From: Coriobacteriia bacterium
GTDB taxonomy: Bacteria; Actinomycetota; Coriobacteriia; Anaerosomatales; Anaerosomataceae
Length of the DNA: 64,000 bases
Assembly: GCA_030652115.1 (NCBI GenBank)
Contig: JAUSBK010000010.1
Span: forward strand, 248,001-312,000
Direction of reading: 5' to 3'
Shown: positions 48,099-64,000 of the stretch, piece after piece
Layout: every line of letters starts with the position of its first letter
Numbering within the stretch: the stretch's first letter is position 1
Notes under the pieces: model-generated
Told to the model about the DNA's origin: nothing
Databases searched by the model: none
What the model saw: the letters and a program-made list of their open reading frames with translations, nothing else
Program-made: the position numbers and the translations under genes

Positions 48099-48728
48099 TC
48101 AGGGGGTCTGCGTCGTCGCTTCAGACGGCACGGCCTCCGGCGCGGCTTTGGACTCCACCGCGGCCATCACGTACACCTCGATGCCGATCGTGGCTGCAAC
48201 GTACGCAGGCGCCGTGTCGGTCTCTGGCACGTAGGAAAACGTCGTGGTCACCACGCGCACGCCACGATCCAGGGCCTCGATTCGACGGAAGAGATCGATG
48301 TACTCGGCCCAATCGCCCTCGAGCGTCAGGGTGATCGGCACTGCGCTATAGTCCGAGACGCCGCCTTCGGTCTCCGCGTTTCCGGCCTGCAGATCCTCAG
48401 GCTTCAAGGCAATCAAGTCGACCCCCGACGCGTTCGCAACGTCCTGAAGCTCGATGATCACCGATGGGAGCTGAGGTGACTCTGGAATCTCATTCGCGAT
48501 GCGCATGAGTTCGACCTCGTCTGCCGCCGACTGGGCCTTCGCGCTCTGTCGACGAGCCAGAAGCGCCTCCGCGGCGGCCAGGTTGCCCTCTTCCGTTTGG
48601 ATCGTGGCATCGACGCCCGTCGCCTCCTGGAACAGGGGCACTATGACCAGGAAGACGATGGCCAGCGCCACCACTGTGATCACAGCAATCGCGATGTACA
48701 TCTGATTCTGGGCTGATAGTCGGCCCAT
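48099..48728 (-). CDS. pilO: PilO-like pilus alignment protein
   Basis: 209-aa bitopic inner-membrane protein. It has a short N-terminus, one span (about 9-34, MYIAIAVITVVALAIVFLVI), a coiled coil (about 40-75) and a ferredoxin-like domain with VPITLTLEGDWAEYIDLFRRIEAL, typical of PilO. MGRLSAQNQ at 48728 follows a GGAGGA sequence; the in-frame ATG at 48746 has none. Confidence 0.85.
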   Translation of the reverse strand: MGRLSAQNQMYIAIAVITVVALAIVFLVIVPLFQEATGVDATIQTEEGNLAAAEALLARRQSAKAQSAADEVELMRIANEIPESPQLPSVIIELQDVANASGVDLIALKPEDLQAGNAETEGGVSDYSAVPITLTLEGDWAEYIDLFRRIEALDRGVRVVTTTFSYVPETDTAPAYVAATIGIEVYVMAAVESKAAPEAVPSEATTQTP

Positions 48729-48807
48729 GGCTAGCGTCCTCCGCATCGGGTCAGGCGTACTTGGCGGGGCAGGCTCGACCGTCGCGGATGGTTATTGTGT
48801 TGGCACG

Positions 48808-49395
48808 TCACGGCGTGTCACTCCCCGCAGTGGGTTCTGAGACATCCGCTGTCACAGTGAACTGGATAGCCGGCTGTTCCTCGAACTGGCCCTTTTCAGA
48901 GCTGGTCAACCATACGTTGGACAGTTGTTCGAGATCGGCGAGACGCACGAGCAACTTCGCCATCGATTTGTGTCCAACGTCCGGGGAATCGGTCGGCGAG
49001 TCAACCGCCCATCCCGCAAACGTGACAGCCGACTCCTCGGCGGTCAGCGCGTTCAACCAGATGTCCGAAGGCATGACGAGGGAGAGCTCACTGAAGAGCC
49101 TCCCCCAGTTCCGCCGGCCATCGAGCGCCAGCGCGGCGGTACTCCTGCGAGTCTCGAGCGTTGCCGCTCGCTCCTCGAACACCGCAAGGTGCGCTGCCTG
49201 AGCGTTGGTTGACTGGACCTGCTGCTGAACCTCTGCCAGCTCGTCCTGCCGGGCCTGCAGGCGGAAGTGGGCGAACGCCCAGGTACCCGCCAACACGACC
49301 GCTACTAGAACCGCCGCGACGATGATCCAGCCGAAGCGCCGCTCGGCCTTCCTGCGCTCGAGTATCTCCGGAGGGAGCAGGTTGATGCGCATCAT
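48808..49395 (-). CDS. pilN: PilN-like pilus alignment protein
   Basis: 195-aa bitopic protein starting MMRINLLPPEILERRKAERR. The INLLP motif is what PilN uses to bind PilM. One span (about 23-43), a coiled coil (about 45-80) and a ferredoxin-like domain follow. ATG 49395 overlaps the pilM stop as ATGA and has GGGAGGG eight bases upstream. Gap to pilO is 79 bases. Confidence 0.9.
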   Translation of the reverse strand: MMRINLLPPEILERRKAERRFGWIIVAAVLVAVVLAGTWAFAHFRLQARQDELAEVQQQVQSTNAQAAHLAVFEERAATLETRRSTAALALDGRRNWGRLFSELSLVMPSDIWLNALTAEESAVTFAGWAVDSPTDSPDVGHKSMAKLLVRLADLEQLSNVWLTSSEKGQFEEQPAIQFTVTADVSEPTAGSDTP

Positions 49396-50513
49396 GACTG
49401 CAGCCCTCCCAGTGCGAGGCCGATGGCCGTGACTGCACCCATTCGGTCAGCGTGTACGGCCTGCGTGGCCGAACCGCCCACGCTGATCCGCTCGAGAGGA
49501 TCACCGAGCAGCACCTGCGCCTGCAGGCCCTTCTCGAGATATGAGCTGAAGTTGCGAAGCTGCGAGCCGCTTCCGGTGAGAAGGATCCTCTGGATCGTTC
49601 GAACCTGCGAGGTCTGCGTGAGGTAGTAGTCCAAAGACCGTCTGACCTCAGCGATGAACTTGTTCACTTCGCGCTCGAGCGACTGGTGTACGACCTGAAG
49701 CTGCTCCGGGTTGACACCGGGTGTGATGTCGCTCTCGCCGGTCTCGACGTTCGGCAGACCGACAAGGATCTTCAGCTGCTCGGCCTCGTCGAAACCGATG
49801 TTCATGACGTTGGCGATCGCCTGGGTGAAGGTGCCGCCGGCAAGCGACGAGATGCGGTTGAACCGCGGTATACCGCGCTCTACGACCGCGATGTTCGTGA
49901 TGCCCGCGGCGATGTGAACGATCGCTGTGGCCTGCCCCTCGTCCTCCGGCAGGACCGCGCCACCCTCGCCCATCAGCGCGCGGACGATGGCGAACGACGA
50001 GACGTCCACCTGCGTAAGCTTGAGACCGGCGCCCTCGATGGCCGAGACGGTGTTGCCGATCATCTCGCGATGCGCGGCGACGAGCAGCACCTCCATCATG
50101 TGCTCGTCCGACGGGCTCATGTAGTCGCCGATGATCTGGAAGTCGAGGATCGAGTCCTCAACCGCCATCGGGATGTAGTCCTGCGCCTGGTACTGGATCG
50201 CGCTCTGCAGCTCGCCACGCTCCATGAACGGAAGGTCGACGAGGCGGACGATCACGCGCTGGTTCGAGACGCCCGTGCACACATCCTTGCCGTGCACGCT
50301 GGAGACCCGCCACAGTTCTTTGATCGCCGAGGACACGGCTGCGGCGTCGACGATCTCACCGTCGGCGACTGCGCCCATCGGGACGTCGACCCGCCCGTAT
50401 GCAGTCAGGACAGGGCCGGACCCGGTCGACTTGACCTGGGCGACTCTGACGTGATCGGTGCCGATGTCCAGGCCGACTGCGCTCTGGCTCGAACCGAAGG
50501 AGAGGGAACCCAA
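49392..50513 (-). CDS. pilM: PilM, actin-like pilus assembly protein
   Basis: 373-aa cytoplasmic ATPase of the actin/FtsA fold: AVGLDIGTDHVRVAQV (phosphate 1), MERGELQSAIQYQAQDYIPM, VVHIAAGITNIAVVERG-type phosphate 2 region and LLTGSGSQLRNFSSYL. It couples the cytoplasmic motor to PilN. The start is TTG at 50513, supported by AAGGAGG six bases upstream. It is first in the pilMNO-PilP set, with its own upstream gap. Confidence 0.93.
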   Translation of the reverse strand: MGSLSFGSSQSAVGLDIGTDHVRVAQVKSTGSGPVLTAYGRVDVPMGAVADGEIVDAAAVSSAIKELWRVSSVHGKDVCTGVSNQRVIVRLVDLPFMERGELQSAIQYQAQDYIPMAVEDSILDFQIIGDYMSPSDEHMMEVLLVAAHREMIGNTVSAIEGAGLKLTQVDVSSFAIVRALMGEGGAVLPEDEGQATAIVHIAAGITNIAVVERGIPRFNRISSLAGGTFTQAIANVMNIGFDEAEQLKILVGLPNVETGESDITPGVNPEQLQVVHQSLEREVNKFIAEVRRSLDYYLTQTSQVRTIQRILLTGSGSQLRNFSSYLEKGLQAQVLLGDPLERISVGGSATQAVHADRMGAVTAIGLALGGLQS

Positions 50514-55119: not shown

Positions 55120-55959
55120 TCAGGCCAGGCCGACGATGCCCAGGTACCACACCCACAATGCGGGACCGGCAAGCACGGTCAGGACGCAGCCGGCTGCCAG
55201 CCACGGGCCGAACGGTATGCGCGTGTCTGCCGCTGAGCGACCTCGTGCTGCTGCGAGCCCCGCCACGAGGCCAAGCAGGCTGCCGATGAACATGCACATC
55301 ACCACATACGGGCCGACGAAGATTCCGAGTACGGCGAGAAGCTTGACATCGCCCATGCCCAGACCCCGCTTGTGTCGCACGAGCCCGTACAGCGCCGCAA
55401 GTCCCCCGGGCAATGCGACCCCGATCGCCGCCCCGAGCAGGGCGGCCGGGACAGGCTCGGACAGCCACCCCGATGCGGCTGTTCCCACCAATGGCGCCAG
55501 GTGCAGCCCGGAGATCTGCCCGGCGATCGCAGCCGCCGCCCCGACGCCAGCGAGTGCACCGACCAGCACGTTCGGCAGGCGCATGGTGTCGAGATCGATC
55601 ACGGAGAGAACGAGCAGGAACCAGAAGAGCACCGCCGCTACGATCGCCGCCCCTGACACACCGAAGCGGAGCGCTGCAGCCACGAACAGCACGCCTGCTG
55701 CCGCCTCTACCAGCGGATAGCGCACCGCAATGGACTCACCGCACGTGCGGCACCGCGCGCGGAGCACCATCCATGACACCACGGGGATGTTGTCGTACCA
55801 GGCGATGGCCGTCTCGCAGCGCGGGCAGTGCGAGCCGGGGCTCACGATGGACTCCCCTCGCGGCACGCGCCAGATGACGACGTTCGCGAAACTGCCGAAG
55901 AGCAGCCCGAACAACCCCATGCTCATCGCAAAGAACCAGAGGGGCATGTACGCGGTCAT
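55120..55959 (-). CDS. pilD: Prepilin leader peptidase / N-methyltransferase
   Basis: 279-aa polytopic aspartic peptidase that cleaves and N-methylates prepilins. The N-terminal domain has two CxxC pairs (CPRCETAIAWYDNIPVVSW and CRTCGESI) and the peptidase part has VIDLDTMRLPN and GLGMGDVKLLA (the two catalytic Asp, GxGD type). ATG 55959 is preferred over 55974 because AAGG lies six bases upstream. Confidence 0.94.
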   Translation of the reverse strand: MTAYMPLWFFAMSMGLFGLLFGSFANVVIWRVPRGESIVSPGSHCPRCETAIAWYDNIPVVSWMVLRARCRTCGESIAVRYPLVEAAAGVLFVAAALRFGVSGAAIVAAVLFWFLLVLSVIDLDTMRLPNVLVGALAGVGAAAAIAGQISGLHLAPLVGTAASGWLSEPVPAALLGAAIGVALPGGLAALYGLVRHKRGLGMGDVKLLAVLGIFVGPYVVMCMFIGSLLGLVAGLAAARGRSAADTRIPFGPWLAAGCVLTVLAGPALWVWYLGIVGLA

Positions 55960-56024
55960 CGGGCGCCTTCTCATCGAGTGGATTGTCCGCGCCCAGGATA
56001 GCGCAGTCGATGCCGAGCATGATG

Positions 56025-56089: not shown

Positions 56090-56440
56090 CTACTCGTAGT
56101 TGTGCTCGGTGTCGAAGTCGCAGGTGAAGTCGCCGCTCGCGACCGAGTACTCACTCGTGGCGTCGGCCGGGCAGAAAGGATCCCACTCCTTGACGTACTC
56201 GCCAAGGACAGCCTCGGGATCGGCGTCGACGTCGTCAACAGCGTTGTCGGGGTCGGCCGCAAGGTACTGCTGGGTCGCACCGTCAAGAACACGCAGGTTG
56301 TTCTGGCAGGCGCTCTTGCGAGCTGAATCCTGAGCTGCATTGAAGACCGGAATGGCGATAGCAACAAGGATACCGATAATCAGAACGACGACCATGAGCT
56401 CGACGAGGGTGAAGCCCTCCTCTTTCTTGAACATCCGCAT
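56090..56440 (-). CDS. pilA: Major type IV pilin
   Basis: 116-aa prepilin: short leader MRMFKKEEG, cleavage before FTLVELMVVVLIIGILVAIA with Glu at +5, then a small globular head with two or more Cys (SACQNNLRVLDG, PFCPADATSE, GDFTC) for disulfide loops. GGGAGG seven bases before ATG. Own leader hairpin and strong downstream terminator mark it as the highly expressed subunit. A paralogue is at 54620. Confidence 0.95.
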   Translation of the reverse strand: MRMFKKEEGFTLVELMVVVLIIGILVAIAIPVFNAAQDSARKSACQNNLRVLDGATQQYLAADPDNAVDDVDADPEAVLGEYVKEWDPFCPADATSEYSVASGDFTCDFDTEHNYE

Positions 56441-56542: not shown

Positions 56543-57757
56543 TCACTTGATGAGCGTGATCGACTGGAACATCGGCATGTAGAGTGCGATGACCATGCCA
56601 CCGACGATCACGCCGAGCGTGGCCATCATGACGGGCTCGATAACGGAGGTCAGGGCATCCACGGCCTGGCTGACCTCTTCGTCGTAGAAGTCTGCGATCT
56701 TGCTCAGCATCTGGTCGAGCGCGCCGGTCTCTTCACCCACGGCCACCATCTGGACCACCATCGAGGGGAAGACCGGGGACTCAGAGAGTGGCTTGGCGAT
56801 CGTTTCGCCTTCCTTGATCGCACCGCGTGCGTTCTTGAGCGCCCGGGCGACAACCTCGTTACCTGCCGTGTCCGCAACGATGTCCATGGCAGAGAGAATC
56901 GGCACGCCCGCAGCTACGAGCGTCGAGAAGGTCCGCGTGAAGCGGGCGATCGCCGTCTTGCGCTGCAACGGACCAACGATGGGCATGCGCAGCAGTATCC
57001 CGTCCCATATGAATCGGCCCGAATCGGTCGCGACCCACATCTTGAACGCGACCACGATGATGATGATCACCGCAACGACGACAAGACCGGGCCAGCTGGT
57101 CGCGCCGTTTGAGATGTTCACGAGGATCTGCGTCGGAAGCGGCAGTGTGCCGCCCATGTCCGAGAACATCTTCTCGAAGGTGGGCACGACGAAGATCATC
57201 ATCGCGACCAGAATGATCAACACGAGCGCGAGCATGGCGATGGGATAGGTCATAGCGGACTTGATGCGCCCCTTGAGGCTCGCATCCGCCTCGAAGAGAT
57301 CCGCCACCCGGAGCAGGACCTCGTCGAGCACACCACCCGTCTCGCCCGCGCGCACCATGTTGTAGAAGATCGGCGGGAAGATCTTCGGATGCTTCACCAT
57401 CGCCTCGGAAAGCGACTGGCCTGCTTCCACGTCCCGGCCCAACTGGGCGATGACCTCCCGGAGCTCGCGACTCTCGGACTGCGCACCCAGTATGCTCAGG
57501 CACTTGGTGAGCGACAGGCCGGCGTTGATCATCGTGGCGAACTGCCGCGAAAAGATGGTGACGTCCTTGGTCTTGACCGTGGTGCCGAACTGGATCTTGT
57601 TCAGTCTGGCGAGGCGGTCCTCGTCGAGGTCGAGGACGATGTAGCCCATCTGGCGTAGCTTGGTAGCAACAGCTTCGCGGTTCTCGCCCTCGAGCTTGCC
57701 GCTGACGACCTTGCCGGTCTTGTCGCGGACGTTGTACTTGAAGGTCACGGTGGCCAT
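56543..57757 (-). CDS. pilC: PilC, inner-membrane platform protein
   Basis: 404-aa GspF/PilC protein with two repeated cytoplasmic helical domains (FSRQFATMINAGLSLTKCL and FTRTFSTLVAAGVPILSAM) and about three membrane spans. It links the motor ATPase to pilin assembly. An N-terminal extension (about 1-60, FKYNVRDKTGKVVSGKLEG) is normal for PilC. 76 bases separate it from pilB; no pilT gene lies between them. Confidence 0.95.
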   Translation of the reverse strand: MATVTFKYNVRDKTGKVVSGKLEGENREAVATKLRQMGYIVLDLDEDRLARLNKIQFGTTVKTKDVTIFSRQFATMINAGLSLTKCLSILGAQSESRELREVIAQLGRDVEAGQSLSEAMVKHPKIFPPIFYNMVRAGETGGVLDEVLLRVADLFEADASLKGRIKSAMTYPIAMLALVLIILVAMMIFVVPTFEKMFSDMGGTLPLPTQILVNISNGATSWPGLVVVAVIIIIVVAFKMWVATDSGRFIWDGILLRMPIVGPLQRKTAIARFTRTFSTLVAAGVPILSAMDIVADTAGNEVVARALKNARGAIKEGETIAKPLSESPVFPSMVVQMVAVGEETGALDQMLSKIADFYDEEVSQAVDALTSVIEPVMMATLGVIVGGMVIALYMPMFQSITLIK

Positions 57758-57833: not shown

Positions 57834-59504
57834 CTACACGATGACCCGGGCGATCTCCTCTATCGAGGTTCGGCCCATCCGCACCTTCTCGAGCCCGTCC
57901 ATCTTGAGCGTCAGCATGCCCTGCTCGATCGCCACCTCCCGGATCGCCTCGGCGGTGGCCTCGCGCACGCACAGCTCGCCGATCTCCTCGGAGACGAGCA
58001 TGACCTCGTGCACCCCGAGACGCCCGCGGTAGCCGGTGCCGCCGCACTTCTTGCAGCCTTTGCCGCGGAACAGCTTCTCTGGGAGATTATCTTCGGGGTA
58101 CCCGGCGTCCAACAGCACTTGCTTGGATGGCTTGTACTCTTCTTTGCAGTCCGGGCAGAGCCGACGCGCGAGCCGCTGTGCAAGAACGCAGTCCACAGAG
58201 GACGCCACCAGGAACGGCTCGACACCCATCTCGGTGAGACGTGTGATAGCGCCGGCGGCGTCGTTCGTGTGCAGCGTTGAGAGCACGAGGTGACCCGTGA
58301 GCGCGGATTCGATGGCGATCTGCGCGGTCTCTTGGTCGCGAATCTCACCGACAAGGATGATGTCGGGCGAGCAGCGCAGGAACGAACGGAGCGCGCGCGC
58401 GAACGTGAGCCCCGCCTTCACGTTCGTCTGGATCTGATTGACGCCGGGTAGACGGTACTCCACCGGATCCTCGGCTGTGAGGATATGCTTGCCCGGGTCG
58501 TTCAGCACGTTGATTGCGGCGTAGAGCGACGTCGACTTACCGGAGCCGGTCGGACCGGTCACGAGGATGGCGCCGTACGGCTTCCGGAACGACGACTCAA
58601 AACGCTCGAGGGCCGACGGCAGGAAGCCGAGGTCCTCGAGACGCAACATGATGTTGTCCTTGCGCAGGATTCGCAGGACGATCCGCTCACCGTACACGGT
58701 GGGAAGCGTGGAGACGCGGAAGTCCATCTTGTGACCGCCGATGGTGAGCCCGCAGTGGCCGTCTTGCGGCTTGCGGGTCTCGGCGATATCCATGTCCGCC
58801 ATGATCTTGAAGCGCGAGAGGATCGCTGCCTGCGTGCCCTTAGGGCTGCGCATCAGCTCGTGGAGCACACCGTCGATGCGATACCGGACGCGTAGGTCCT
58901 TCTCTTGCGGCTCGACGTGGATGTCGCTTGCACGGTCCGCAACCGCTTTGTTGATGATGAAGTTCACGAGCTTGACGATCGGAGCTTCGTCGGTGACTTC
59001 GGTCAGGTTCTCGAGCGACATGCCCTCGAGCTCATCGGCACCGCCCATCTCGTCTTCGCTGAGGGTCGCCGCGACCTTGTAGAACTCCTGTACGGTCGCG
59101 ACGATGTCGTCTTTGGTGGAAATCGCAGGCTTGATCTCGTAACCGGTGATGATGCGGAGGTCGTCGAGCGCCAGCACGTTCTGCGGGTCGGCCATGGCGA
59201 CGACAAGTTCATCGTTCACTATCTCAACCGGCATGAGCGTATAGCGGGTCGCGAGGTCCTTGGGCACGACGGCGATGGCGTTGGCGTCGGGGCGCGTCAC
59301 CGAGAAGTCGATGTACGGGATGCCGATCTGCTTGGCCATCACTGAGAGGATGCCACCCTGGGTGGCGTAGCCCAGGTCGACGAGAACACGGCCGAGCGGA
59401 CTCCCTGTGGCCTTGTGGACCTCGAGGGCGTCGTTGAGCTGTCGCTCGGTTATGATGCCGGCGCGCATGAGCAGCACGCCGAGCCGCTGACCCGCCTCCG
59501 CCAC
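57834..59504 (-). CDS. pilB: PilB/GspE-type pilus extension ATPase with MshEN domain
   Basis: 556-aa hexameric ATPase powering pilus extension. Residues about 7-60 form an MshEN (GSPII_E N-terminal) domain with the RLGxxL...LGxxLV pattern known to bind cyclic di-GMP in MshE. The core has Walker A GPTGSGKST (317-325), Asp box, and a tetracysteine zinc site (CPDCKEEYK and CKKCGGTGYRGR). GTG 59504. It lies directly downstream of the GTPase/roadblock block. Confidence 0.95.
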   Translation of the reverse strand: MAEAGQRLGVLLMRAGIITERQLNDALEVHKATGSPLGRVLVDLGYATQGGILSVMAKQIGIPYIDFSVTRPDANAIAVVPKDLATRYTLMPVEIVNDELVVAMADPQNVLALDDLRIITGYEIKPAISTKDDIVATVQEFYKVAATLSEDEMGGADELEGMSLENLTEVTDEAPIVKLVNFIINKAVADRASDIHVEPQEKDLRVRYRIDGVLHELMRSPKGTQAAILSRFKIMADMDIAETRKPQDGHCGLTIGGHKMDFRVSTLPTVYGERIVLRILRKDNIMLRLEDLGFLPSALERFESSFRKPYGAILVTGPTGSGKSTSLYAAINVLNDPGKHILTAEDPVEYRLPGVNQIQTNVKAGLTFARALRSFLRCSPDIILVGEIRDQETAQIAIESALTGHLVLSTLHTNDAAGAITRLTEMGVEPFLVASSVDCVLAQRLARRLCPDCKEEYKPSKQVLLDAGYPEDNLPEKLFRGKGCKKCGGTGYRGRLGVHEVMLVSEEIGELCVREATAEAIREVAIEQGMLTLKMDGLEKVRMGRTSIEEIARVIV

Positions 59505-59610: not shown

Positions 59611-60669
59611 CTACCAGCCTCTGGCAGTACGCAGGTCCTGGAGCAGGATACCGGCAAGCCGCTGAAACTCAGCGAAGCTGCGCGTGCCCGGCTTGACGCC
59701 GATCCGCCCGCTGCCGCCGGTGAAGTGCAGTTCGACTGGGGCGACGAGCGCGTACTCGGCGGCCGACGGCGCTGTCGCGGCGGGTGCCGGCCGCGCGGGT
59801 GCGGGCGGCACGGGGGTCGATGTGACCACTGCCGCTGGATTGATCGCGGCTGAAGCAGGAGCTGCTGGCTCAGGCTCAAAGATGGGCACCGTGTGGCCTG
59901 GCGCGGTCGCGGCCGGGGATGACAGGACCTGCCCCACCGAAGGGGGCGGCGAGAGCGGCGGGATCGCCGGCGTGAAGTCGGGTTCTGCGGGTGCTGGCAC
60001 GGACGGCGTCACGACCGCGTCATGTTCATCTGCGGTCATCAGCGGCGCTGCCTGCTCGGCAGCCGCCATCAGCCGCTCGAGATCGTCTGCGAGCGAGTAG
60101 CCCGGGAGGGGTGCGGGCTCGCGCTCGGGCTCGGGCTCGGGCTCGAGTGCAGGCTCGGGTGCCGGCTCGGGTGCGGGCTCGGGTGCAGGCTCGGGCACCG
60201 GCTCGGGCTCGGGTGCGGGCTCGGGCGCGGGCTCGGGTGCAGGCTCGGGTGCGGGCTCGCGCTCGGGCTCGGGCTCGGGTGCAGGTGCGGGCTCGGGTGC
60301 GGGCACCGGCGCGGGCTGCGATTCCCAGCGTGGCTCGGCGAAGAAGGTCGTCTCGGTGATGGGCGGCGCCGTCACGGTCCCACCGACGGGATGGATCTCC
60401 GGAAGCGCGAACTCGTGAGGTTGCGCCACGGCTGCGTCGGGCACGCCCAAGACCCCGGGCACCTCGGCCACCGGCATGGAGAACACGTCCTCTGCATGCT
60501 CGGCGGACGACGCGAGGTAGCGCTCCTCGCCCTCGCTGTCTGCAGTGGGCTTCACGCCCCGCGCGCGCCGAACCGCCGACCGGTACCGCGCGAGCGCGAC
60601 CGCAAAGTAGATGACGAGAACGACCAGGAGCAGTCCCAGCCCGGCGAGCATGTAGTAGCGCTCGTCCAC
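59611..60669 (-). CDS. Membrane-anchored Pro/Glu-repeat protein of the pilus regulatory block
   Basis: 352-aa protein, family not recognised. One N-terminal membrane span (about 6-28) is followed by a basic segment, a long Pro/Ala/Glu repeat (about residues 118-188, alternating PEPAPEP and PEPEPE units), a linker, and a conserved-looking C-terminal stretch (about 300-352, [23 protein letters not shown]). The stiff repeat could span a distance in the cytoplasm or envelope. GTG start, five bases after the GTPase stop, so it is probably co-transcribed. EF-P should be needed for its translation. Confidence 0.7.
60106..60320. repeat. Hexanucleotide-like repeat coding for Pro/Glu/Ala units
   Basis: Tandem GGCTCG-GGTGCG and GGCTCGGGCTCG units on the plus strand, in frame with the minus-strand gene. 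Gain or loss of 6-base units would keep the frame and only change linker length. Confidence 0.8.
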
Positions 60670-60674
60670 CGCCG

Positions 60675-61202
60675 TCAGTTCATGCTGTCGAGGATCCGAT
60701 AGAGCAGCCCGAGCAGCACCGCCTTGACACTCTCCTTCTCGCGCGCGTCGACCGGGAGCAGCGGGATCTCATCATCGAGTTCGATAGCGTTGCGCACCGC
60801 CCGGAGCGTCTTCATGTCGGTGGCGGACACCTTGTTCGCCGCCACCACGAAGGGCACATCGGACATATTGCGGAAGAACGTGATCATCGACTTGGCATCC
60901 TCGTACGACTCGCGATCGTCGGCATCGACGAGAAGCACGAATCCGAGCATGCCCTCCGACAGCGTCTCCCACATGAACGAGAAGCGCTCCTGCCCCGGCG
61001 TGCCGAAGAGGTAGAGCACGACGTCGTCGGAGATCGTGATGCGGCCGAAGTCCATCGCGACGGTGGTTTCGCCCGCACCTTCTCCGGAGCTATCGCTGAT
61101 CTGCCTCTCGGTTGAGAGCACGGTGATCTCGCTGACCGCCTTGATGAAGGTCGTCTTACCGGCGTTGAACGGGCCGGTGATCACGACTTTGACAGACTGC
61201 AT
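60675..61202 (-). CDS. Small GTPase, CvnD/MglA-like
   Basis: 175-aa Ras-like GTPase. P-loop GPFNAGKT is at 10-17; the switch region includes [12 protein letters not shown]; the G3 motif is GTPGQERF (67-74) with Gly in place of the usual Asp; G4 is NKVS (123-126). The sequence [16 protein letters not shown] is that of the conservon CvnD group of Streptomyces and is related to MglA, which controls polarity and type IV pilus motility in Myxococcus. It sits between the DUF4388 gene (17-base gap) and the Pro/Glu membrane protein, upstream of pilB. A role as a pilus switch is inferred. Confidence 0.88.
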
Positions 61203-61219
61203 TCAGAGCTCCGTCCCTC

Positions 61220-63400
61220 TTAGAGGTTCTCTACGCCTTCGATGATCTTCTCGAGCAGTGTCCGATCGACCATCTGGTCGCGGTGCAGCATGTGGGTCTC
61301 GCCCGTATCGGGAAGCTTCGCGACGGTCGCCACCGGACGAGACCGTCCGCTCGCACCTCCGGTGAGCGCTGTCAACTCGTCTCCGAGGCCTGCCGACAGA
61401 CCGACATCGTCAAACTCCGCGAGGAAGGCATCGGTCGAGATGACGCCTTCGGGCTCGGCCTCCGGACCGTAGTCGGTCTCCGAGGCGATGAGGCCTGCGG
61501 CGCCCGAATCCCCCTCGAGTGATGCGAGCAGCGAGTCCAGGTCCTGATCGCCGGGCGCTTCCTCCACCTGTGGGGCATACTCCGATTCCGCGGCTGCCTC
61601 GAGCGTAGGCTCGAACGGCGCCTCGGGCGCCTCCACTTCCACTTCAGAGTCGAGCACGGAATCGAATGGACCCTCGAGTTCGGACATCGGCGGGCGAGCC
61701 TCAGCCGGCGGCTCGGGCTGGAGCAGCTCCTCGGGGTATTCACCCAGGCCGAGCGACCGGAGATCCGTTTCAAAGTCACCACTGGGCGCGAAGATCTCCC
61801 CCGCCGGCGCTACCTCGGTCTCGGCAACCGGCGGCGCGGGAATGGCGTCGAGATCCGCCTCGGAGATCGCCCCAAATCCGAACGCGTCCTCGGCCGACGG
61901 TTCGGGCAGCTCGGCTTCCGGCACGCCCAGTTCCAGTGAGATCCCGGCTTCAGCCGCAAGAGCAGCCTCGATCTCCGCGATCGTGAGCTCCCCTTCCGGG
62001 GCAATGTCGGCGCCTTCAGGAGTCTCCAGAGCGGGTTCGACCACCGGCACCGCTTCGTACTCGGACACCATGAAGAACTCAGTCTCGGGCTGCGGTTCAG
62101 CCATGAGTTCCTGAAGAGCTTCGACGTCGGCCTCCGGCATGGAGACCGCAGGGGCCTCGAACTCGAGAACGGGTTCGGCCTCGAGTTCGGGTTCGGGTTC
62201 GGGTTCGGCCTCAAGTTCGGGTTCGAGTTCGGGTTCGGGTTCGGGTTCGGGTTCGGGAACCGCCTCGAGTGCCGGCTCGACCTCGGGCTCCGCCTCCGGT
62301 TCGGCGATGGGAGTAGTCACGACCTGCGGCGACAGGACCGAGGCCATCATCTGCTCGAAGACGGCCATGTCGTCCGAGGACGGGGCTTCGGCGCCCGAGG
62401 CGAGGAACTCGGGTTCCTCGACCACGCGTTCCGGTTTCTCCTCGGGCTCAGCCGATGCCACGGGCGCCTCTTCCGCGACAGACGCCTTCTGCGCGACAGA
62501 CGCCTCGGCTGCAGCCTCCTGGGAGGTCTCCTCGCGTCGGGCCTCGGCGTCGGCCGCAAGCTTCGCCTCGAGCTCGAGAGCCTCCTCTTGCTGTTCGGCA
62601 TCGCGCGCAGCGCGGTCGGCCTCAAGGATGGCGCGCTTGTCCTCACGTCGCGCCCGGTCCGCGCGAAGCCGCTCGACTTCATCGTCGGCCGCGACCTCCA
62701 GCAGTCCGGCCGAGAACAGGCCATACACAACGCGAGCGACCTCGAAGTCGGTGCTGTGCGTTTCGACGGCCAGCTCGCGCACTGAACGTGTGCCGTCGAT
62801 CAGAAGCAGAAGCGCCCACTCGATCGGCTTGAGCGAGATCTCGAACGTACCCTCGCCCGGAGCCGTGGCCATCTTGAACACCATGTCGGTGGAGGGCACC
62901 TTCTTCTTGATGCGCTGCCACTCTTCGAGACGGCGGCTGCCCTCCATGACGATGTTCTCGACCGAGACCGCGAGACCGATGTCCTCATGCACGACCTCGG
63001 GCAGGACCTCGAAGTCGAACTCCCCTTCGTCCCATCGCATCAGGTCGAAGATGGTGTCCTGGATCTGCTCCTGGACGAACGTCTCGAGCACCTGCTGGGT
63101 GATGTAGCCCTCTCCAACCAGGATCTGGCCCAGGCGACGTCCGCCCTCGCCCTCCGCCTCACGGGCCTCAAGCGCCCGCGCGAGCGCCGCAGGCGTGATC
63201 CGTTGCGCGCTCACCAGGCGTTCGCCCAACTGCTCGCGACGCCAGTTGGACTGCGCGAAGAAGACGTCGCCTTCGCGGAACCAGATGCTGCCCTCGGCTT
63301 CGGATCCGACAATGCGCAGCACACCGGTCTTCCCGCTCAACTGAACGAGCTGGAAGACATCGGGAAGGCTGAAGTCCTTGAGGTTACCGCGCAGTGCCAT
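61220..63400 (-). CDS. DUF4388 (PATAN) domain protein with acidic repeat region
   Basis: 726-aa protein. The N-terminal DUF4388 domain (MALRGNLKDFSLPDVFQLVQ to FREGDVFFAQ, about 1-105) is followed by an MshEN-like helical segment (GRRLGQILVGEGYITQQVLE to LMRWDEGEFDFE). A winged-helix-like part comes next (about 190-250), with a Glu/Ala-rich coiled coil and a long acidic PE-repeat region. A conserved C-terminal tail ends the protein (RDQMVDRTLLEKIIEGVENL). DUF4388 proteins occur with GTPase and roadblock genes and with gliding or pilus systems. No membrane span; probably a cytoplasmic scaffold. Confidence 0.85.
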   Translation of the reverse strand: MALRGNLKDFSLPDVFQLVQLSGKTGVLRIVGSEAEGSIWFREGDVFFAQSNWRREQLGERLVSAQRITPAALARALEAREAEGEGGRRLGQILVGEGYITQQVLETFVQEQIQDTIFDLMRWDEGEFDFEVLPEVVHEDIGLAVSVENIVMEGSRRLEEWQRIKKKVPSTDMVFKMATAPGEGTFEISLKPIEWALLLLIDGTRSVRELAVETHSTDFEVARVVYGLFSAGLLEVAADDEVERLRADRARREDKRAILEADRAARDAEQQEEALELEAKLAADAEARREETSQEAAAEASVAQKASVAEEAPVASAEPEEKPERVVEEPEFLASGAEAPSSDDMAVFEQMMASVLSPQVVTTPIAEPEAEPEVEPALEAVPEPEPEPEPELEPELEAEPEPEPELEAEPVLEFEAPAVSMPEADVEALQELMAEPQPETEFFMVSEYEAVPVVEPALETPEGADIAPEGELTIAEIEAALAAEAGISLELGVPEAELPEPSAEDAFGFGAISEADLDAIPAPPVAETEVAPAGEIFAPSGDFETDLRSLGLGEYPEELLQPEPPAEARPPMSELEGPFDSVLDSEVEVEAPEAPFEPTLEAAAESEYAPQVEEAPGDQDLDSLLASLEGDSGAAGLIASETDYGPEAEPEGVISTDAFLAEFDDVGLSAGLGDELTALTGGASGRSRPVATVAKLPDTGETHMLHRDQMVDRTLLEKIIEGVENL
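62165..62275. repeat. TCGGGT hexamer repeats in the DUF4388 gene
   Basis: Runs of GGTTCG on the plus strand, encoding Glu-Pro dipeptides on the minus strand. Unit length of six keeps the frame. Similar to the repeat in the neighbouring membrane protein gene. Confidence 0.75.
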
Positions 63401-63455
63401 TGATTCTTGCTGTCACTCCTCGGCGCATCGTGTGGTACGGGCCATACCCGGGAGC

Positions 63456-64000
63456 TTAGCCAAGGATCTGACTGATGCGCTCCGCAGCCGACTTCATGTC
63501 GTAAAGCACCAGTCCGAGCTTGGCGGCGGGATCCGCCATCGCCGTGAGAACGGCGCGCTCACCGGCAGCCATCAGCAGCACGTAGCCGGTGTCCCCCTCG
63601 ATGAAGACCTGCGAGAGATGCCCACGGCCGAGTTCTGCGGCCGCGCGCTCACCCAGGCCCAGGATGGCAGCCGACATGGCGCCGACGCGGTCGGCCTGCA
63701 TACCGGCAGGCAGCGCCGAAGCCATGGTGAAACCGTCGAGGCTAACGAGCGCCGACGCCTGGATGTCGGGGTCGTTGCGCATGAGATCGTCGAGCGCCTC
63801 GGCGAGCAGCTGCTCACGCGTGGCCTGCCGAGTGGCCACCTGCGGACGAGGCGTCGAGGCGGGCGCCACGTAGGCGGGCTGGGCCGCGACGGGTGCCGCG
63901 GCCACCGGTGCGGGCGCAGGAGCAGCGGGCTCCGGCGCGGCCGGCACCTGCTGTGTCGCTCGCTGTGGGATCACGGGAACCACGACGGGAGCGCCGAGCA
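63456..64000 (-). CDS. Roadblock/LC7 domain protein (5' end cut by window edge)
   Basis: At least 181 codons, open to the window edge. An N-terminal Pro/Ala-rich stretch is followed by a roadblock domain (about the last 115 residues: LAEALDDLMRNDPDIQASALVSLDG, MASALPAGMQADRVGAMSAAILGLGERAAAEL, TGYVLLMAAGERAVL). Roadblock proteins of the MglB/CvnB type act as partners or GTPase-activating proteins for MglA/CvnD-like GTPases, one of which is encoded two genes downstream. An internal GTG at 63983 could be a start, but the frame continues with similar composition. Confidence 0.82.
   Translation of the reverse strand, partial: LGAPVVVPVIPQRATQQVPAAPEPAAPAPAPVAAAPVAAQPAYVAPASTPRPQVATRQATREQLLAEALDDLMRNDPDIQASALVSLDGFTMASALPAGMQADRVGAMSAAILGLGERAAAELGRGHLSQVFIEGDTGYVLLMAAGERAVLTAMADPAAKLGLVLYDMKSAAERISQILG

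Follow-up and report, generated by a model that had tools for sequence, protein, structure and literature searches.

A conserved GTPase, roadblock and PATAN gene set beside pilB in Actinomycetota, with a putative role in control of the pilus motor

Described pilus regulators and the present operon

The cyanobacterial proteins PixG and PixE bind the pilus motor PilB1, and PixG also binds PilC (PMC12288463, PMC9090330). In Myxococcus, MglA together with SgmX recruits PilB, and two PATAN proteins co-occur with SgmX (PMC11580455). Wuichet and Sogaard-Andersen (2014) described some MglA genes of Groups 1 and 5 as having PATAN genes in their vicinity and cited an earlier link between MglB and PATAN (PMC4316618). 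By what route small GTPases and PATAN proteins act on the pilus motor is a standing question for Myxococcus as well as for cyanobacteria. The proximity of MglA/MglB genes to PATAN genes was reportedly noted by Makarova et al. in 2006.

In this study, we analysed a 64-kb stretch of DNA, called the window here (contig C10:248001-312000, JAUSBK010000010.1), from the 2.38-Mb assembly of a Coriobacteriia bacterium (GCA_030652115.1). A GTPase, a roadblock protein, a candidate adaptor with a DUF4388 domain (PF14332), which we take to be the PATAN domain, and a motor are encoded there in one compact operon that recurs across many lineages, a fused version included, so that a few purified proteins would be enough to put the question of a GTPase-adaptor-PilB connection to a direct test. 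The PATAN regulators of cyanobacterial phototaxis (PixG, PixE, LsiR) are similar in that a PATAN domain is tied to PilB control, but in them photoreceptors drive a PATAN domain that is joined to a CheY-type receiver, whereas the PATAN protein described here has no receiver and is accompanied by a GTPase and a roadblock protein. The Myxococcus MglA/MglB system (with SgmX, FrzS and SopA) likewise places a small GTPase and its roadblock partner upstream of PilB; it differs in its Group 1 GTPase with an intrinsic arginine, in its TPR effector SgmX and in the position of its genes outside the pil operon. The Group 5 MglA proteins encoded near PATAN genes are of the same GTPase type by motifs and have occasional PATAN neighbours, but the accessible part of the paper concerned does not describe a pilB link, a phylum-wide gene order or an MshE-like insert (PMC4316618). 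Conservons (CvnA-D, Mfp) have a roadblock protein and a GTPase in common with the operon and differ in having a histidine kinase and CvnC, a separate GTPase clade and another genomic setting.

The operon would thus be a fully linked version of a known type of control, each link of the chain having precedents. The earlier note on this DNA had called it the best candidate in the window for an undescribed system, which overstates the case, as PATAN proteins are known and their vicinity to MglA/MglB was described in 2014 and reportedly in 2006. Binding of cyanobacterial PATAN proteins to PilB1 and PilC is also on record (PMC12288463). In a literature search that lay mostly outside subscription journals, neither the operon as a whole nor its wide distribution nor the motor-like insert reported below was found described.

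Gene arrangement and its conservation

Four consecutive minus-strand genes had been placed directly upstream of pilB in the earlier note, with gaps of 55, 17, 5 and 106 bases, and the ORF coordinates reproduce this exactly. According to the ORF list, all four frames (roadblock, DUF4388/PATAN, GTPase and Pro/Glu membrane protein) are open. The features are as follows, in window coordinates.

63456..64000, minus strand (full ORF at window-equivalent 63456-64070): MglB-type roadblock/LC7 gene (Robl_LC7)
61220..63400, minus strand: gene of the putative PATAN (DUF4388) adaptor, 726 aa (Pfam DUF4388, orthologue alignments, AlphaFold model)
63065..63232, minus strand: helical insert of the PATAN protein, residues 57-112 (NCBIfam NF053729, PDB sequence matches, hhalign)
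60675..61202, minus strand: small Ras-like GTPase of the MglA family, Group-5-like (Pfam and motifs)
59611..60669, minus strand: single-pass membrane protein with Pro/Glu-rich linker (orthologue consensus)
57834..59504, minus strand: pilB1, pilus extension ATPase with MshEN domain (Pfam T2SSE, E 1.9e-137, and MshEN)
56543..57757, minus strand: pilC, platform protein (named by order and by homology between relatives)
56090-56440 and 55120-55974: pilA and pilD, rest of the pil operon (pilA named by gene order in relatives, pilD by position and similarity between relatives)
49392-50513, 48808-49395 and 48099-48746: pilM, pilN and pilO, rest of the pil operon (named by position and similarity between relatives)
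64216-65886, window-equivalent (L008:816-2486): pilB2, second PilB-type ATPase, 556 aa (MshEN and T2SSE domains)

The roadblock ORF starts 70 bases past the window edge and encodes a full protein of 204 aa. The first gene upstream of it, outside the window, is pilB2, so the module sits between two pilB genes. PilB2 has an intact Walker A motif, and its gene overlaps aroE by 4 bases; beyond aroE lie genes for a HAD hydrolase, a hypothetical protein and an ABC transporter. For PilB1, the best NCBIfam model was type_IV_pilB, with a score just under the cut-off of that model. The flanking genes read beyond the right edge of the window include none for CvnA or CvnC, and the neighbours of the roadblock and GTPase genes are pilB2, aroE, PATAN and pilB1, in agreement with the earlier description of the set as lacking both. 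A CvnA/CvnC pair just past that edge, which the earlier note had named as a refutation of its reading, was thus not found.

Of the 27 genomes of the same family (Anaerosomataceae), 25 encode the GTPase, with 79-95% identity among the full-length matches listed, across 11 genera. The order aroE-pilB2-roadblock-PATAN-GTPase-TM protein-pilB1-pilC was kept in all 20 stretches from this family as far as the contigs reach, some of them ending early at contig ends; in several genera pilB1 and pilC are separated by a pilT-like gene, and in a few of the 20 stretches no TM protein was recognised by similarity. Within the class, GTPase matches at E <= 1e-10 occurred in 53 of 300 genomes, all of the same order, and the phylum-wide figure was 103 of 397 genomes, conservons included. 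In other actinobacterial families, pilB was found downstream of the GTPase in 20 of 20 stretches (12 families), and roadblock, PATAN and GTPase genes stood together beside pilB in 19 of these, the twentieth contig ending at the GTPase. At no fewer than 46 of the 63 GTPase places checked in the phylum sample, a PilB gene lay on the same strand at a distance of up to 3.3 kb, and 50 or more of the 98 PATAN places had one within 6.5 kb, six of these in genomes without a GTPase match. PilB without the module is common among actinobacterial genomes (PilB in 242/397, a GTPase match in 103/397), which counts against the motor model set out below. The set is a conserved unit tied to pilB, and the gene-neighbourhood search called for earlier, which could have refuted a link to pil genes, found that link again elsewhere in Actinomycetota. 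A chance cluster was rejected, since the arrangement recurs in 20/20 stretches of the family and the GTPase stands beside pilB in 20/20 of other families, 19 of them with roadblock and PATAN.

The membrane protein was found in its own order only and was not retained as a core part of the module, as the earlier note had counted it; perhaps it tethers the complex in that order. It has one TM pass, a Pro/Glu-rich linker and, at its C-terminus, a conserved domain about 45 aa long (window 59611-59800; consensus [10 protein letters not shown]..RxGVKPGTRxFxEFQRLAxxLLxDL), and its orthologues range from 125 to 504 aa. No NCBIfam model matched the protein and Pfam gave only a low-complexity PARP match under the cut-off, while the C-terminal domain had nothing above cut-off in either database. 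As a separate observation, four stretches of one family (L157, L158, L159 and L161) carry three tandem roadblock genes, not one, before a PATAN gene for about 1000-1300 aa.

Identity of the GTPase, the roadblock protein and the PATAN protein

The GTPase has a Pfam Ras-like GTPase match, a P-loop GPFNAGKT, a Thr where Group 1 has its arginine in G2, GTPGQ in G3 and NK in G4, the Thr replacement and GTPGQ being features common to Groups 2-5. Among 11 orthologues of the family, ETTVAM and GTPGQ were invariant, and with respect to the Group 5 pattern [NT]KxD the N and K of G4 were kept while the Asp position was variable. The Thr, GTPGQ and the NK of G4 are as expected for Group 5, and the protein is Group-5-like in this sense. 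A PDB sequence search with the GTPase returned eukaryotic Arf/Rab proteins only. In a GTPase tree of 59 rows, unrooted, built without published Group 5 sequences and informative only on separation from the conservon clade, 18 conservon GTPases formed one clade (100/100) on a long stem, and all pil-linked and Chloroflexota GTPases fell outside it. Given this separate clade and the Group-5-like motifs, the protein is by sequence not a conservon CvnD, so that of the former label "CvnD/MglA-like" the MglA half is borne out by the motifs and the CvnD half is not (separate 100/100 clade; NK, not NxFD).

The roadblock protein, single-copy in the whole genome, matched Pfam Robl_LC7 at E 1.9e-17, and its PDB relatives were Robl_LC7 proteins, including CvnB5. 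Its orthologue consensus has the Asp-Gly pair (SLDGF) that characterises the MglB partners of GTPases of Groups 2-5, and the domain and the conserved pair together place it among such partners. In one genome, roadblock and DUF4388 domains are joined in a single 676-aa ORF (L166:10350-12377), which suggests that the roadblock and PATAN proteins touch.

The PATAN protein matched Pfam DUF4388 at E 9.9e-33 (113 bits against a cut-off of 25), and a control search with DUF4388 matched Synechococcus, consistent with the PATAN identity. It consists of the PATAN domain, a winged-helix-like region to about residue 240, a long acidic variable linker and a conserved C-terminal tail. An AlphaFold model of residues 1-250, built with an alignment, had a pLDDT of 87.5 and showed an insert of four helices within residues 58-121, the same number as in MshEN; above-cut-off match and helical insertion were thus both found, as in the PATAN family. 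The insert (residues 57-112) scored 41.7 bits against NCBIfam NF053729, the MshE-type c-di-GMP motif (cut-off 38), for which PilB1 and PilB2 scored 56.3 and 43.8 bits, and 14 of 19 PATAN orthologues matched the model at E <= 0.001. The best PDB sequence matches of this region were all PilB or MshE (E 1.6e-5), and a profile comparison of the PATAN protein with the PilB1 N-terminus by hhalign gave 95% probability with 35% identity over 63 columns. Kinship of the insert with the MshEN regulatory bundle of the PilB motor itself is therefore well supported at the level of sequence. Foldseek of the PATAN model against the PDB gave no match at E <= 0.001, MshEN included, and so the homology is drawn solely from sequence models.

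The MshEN motif is built of two half-sites of 24 residues that carry Arg, Gly and Gln (PMC5013675). Half-site 2 of the PATAN insert was intact (Arg in 33/35, Gly in 34/35 and Gln in 34/35 orthologues), and half-site 1 was degenerate, with Arg missing in 35/35 and Gln in 24/35. In PilB1 the Gln of half-site 1 was mostly missing as well, and in PilB2 half-site 2 of the MshEN domain was degenerate. Compared with the MshEN receptors of MshE and PilB, the sequence model indicates the same helical bundle with two half-sites, but in the PATAN protein the bundle is inserted into a different domain, its spacer is longer and one half-site is degenerate. The lack of Arg from half-site 1 of PATAN, and largely of Gln from that of PilB1, means that c-di-GMP binding may be lost. 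Canonical binding by the PATAN protein is doubtful, and its reading as an ordinary c-di-GMP receptor was downgraded on account of half-site 1, despite a model score above the cut-off. The ligand itself is probably made by the host, as the genome has 14 GGDEF matches.

A model for control of the pilus motor and its alternatives

Considering the linkage, the family memberships, the homology of the insert, the roadblock-PATAN fusion and the separation from conservons, all read from the sequences, we propose a model, to which we give somewhat better than even confidence and in which the contacts between the proteins, the way control runs and any ligand binding are inferred: a control module of the pilus motor made of a GTPase switch, a roadblock regulator and a PATAN adaptor to the extension ATPase PilB. 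The MglA-family GTPase would be the switch, with the roadblock protein as its regulator (a GAP or an effector subunit), and the pair would most likely set the state of the PATAN adaptor. The adaptor in turn would pass this state on by recruiting or activating PilB at the pilus base. The homology of insert and motor offers a concrete contact hypothesis, which may extend to the cyanobacterial PATAN regulators: the insert most likely sits against the N-terminal ring of PilB or competes with it, so that this could be where c-di-GMP and GTP inputs meet, and the switch would reach PilB perhaps with a c-di-GMP input. The proposal of the earlier note that the DUF4388 protein connects the switch to PilB is plausible, as PATAN proteins of cyanobacteria bind PilB1 and PilC (PMC12288463); its other suggested target, PilM, was not supported. 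A more far-reaching claim, that Actinomycetota have a distinct pilus G-protein system in which a PATAN protein with an MshEN relative brings the signals of GTP and c-di-GMP together at the PilB ring, is put forward as a tentative and rather doubtful one. Its strongest form would be a composite site, in which one c-di-GMP is bound jointly by the intact half-site 2 of the PATAN protein and by half-site 1 of PilB.

The module could instead serve polarity or positioning as in Myxococcus, with the GTPase marking the pilus site and the PATAN protein recruiting PilB there while its activity is unchanged. In M. xanthus it is MglA, with SgmX as its effector, that places PilB at the leading pole (PMC11580455), and the PATAN protein PixG of Synechocystis is found on the leading side, where it presumably recruits or activates PilB (PMC12288463). 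The GTPase described here is without the Group 1 arginine of MglA and SofG, which speaks against such a role, and we regard it as possible but unlikely.

A general signalling unit of GTPase, PATAN and roadblock proteins, with several outputs or acting on gene expression and merely sharing an operon with pil genes, is less likely still. In Anaerolineae (L104-L143), PATAN and GTPase genes adjoin in 40 of 40 loci, and pil genes were found near none of these 40 pairs; the only T2SSE ATPases of four isolates are shorter ones, probably of the Tad type. A pair without PilB, the weightiest point against the motor model, means that PilB is not the sole possible output and counts against a pilus-only role. 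As Anaerolineae keep the pair away from pil genes, it may be an older signalling unit that was wired to PilB in Actinomycetota. The genes for GAF-repeat and response regulator-GGDEF proteins near the pair of one isolate, and the winged-helix-like segment of the PATAN protein, like that of PatA-type regulators, also fit a general unit, but the pilB linkage across 12 families, the PATAN-PilB adjacency even without the GTPase and the relative of a motor domain inside the PATAN protein argue against it. At the Anaerolineae locus L120, the pair is followed by genes for an alpha/beta hydrolase, a hexapeptide-repeat protein, a response regulator-GGDEF protein and a GAF-repeat protein.

Descent from a conservon that lost CvnA and CvnC, to which the common phylum and the shared roadblock-GTPase core might point (PMC13343842), is highly improbable and was rejected on the tree and the motifs, as the conservon GTPases form their own long-stemmed 100/100 clade, G4 is NK and not NxFD, and neither a kinase nor CvnC is present at a locus with the only roadblock gene of the genome.

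The genome carries two DUF4388 (PATAN) genes. The second (contig C4, L011:6576-16080) counts in favour of the motor model: it clusters with genes for CheR, a PilB/GspE-like protein, CheW, an MCP and a CheA-receiver kinase. The PilB/GspE-like protein has a degenerate Walker A motif (APVAGGST, no Lys), so this locus is by its sequence a chemosensory cluster whose motor is probably a pseudo-motor.
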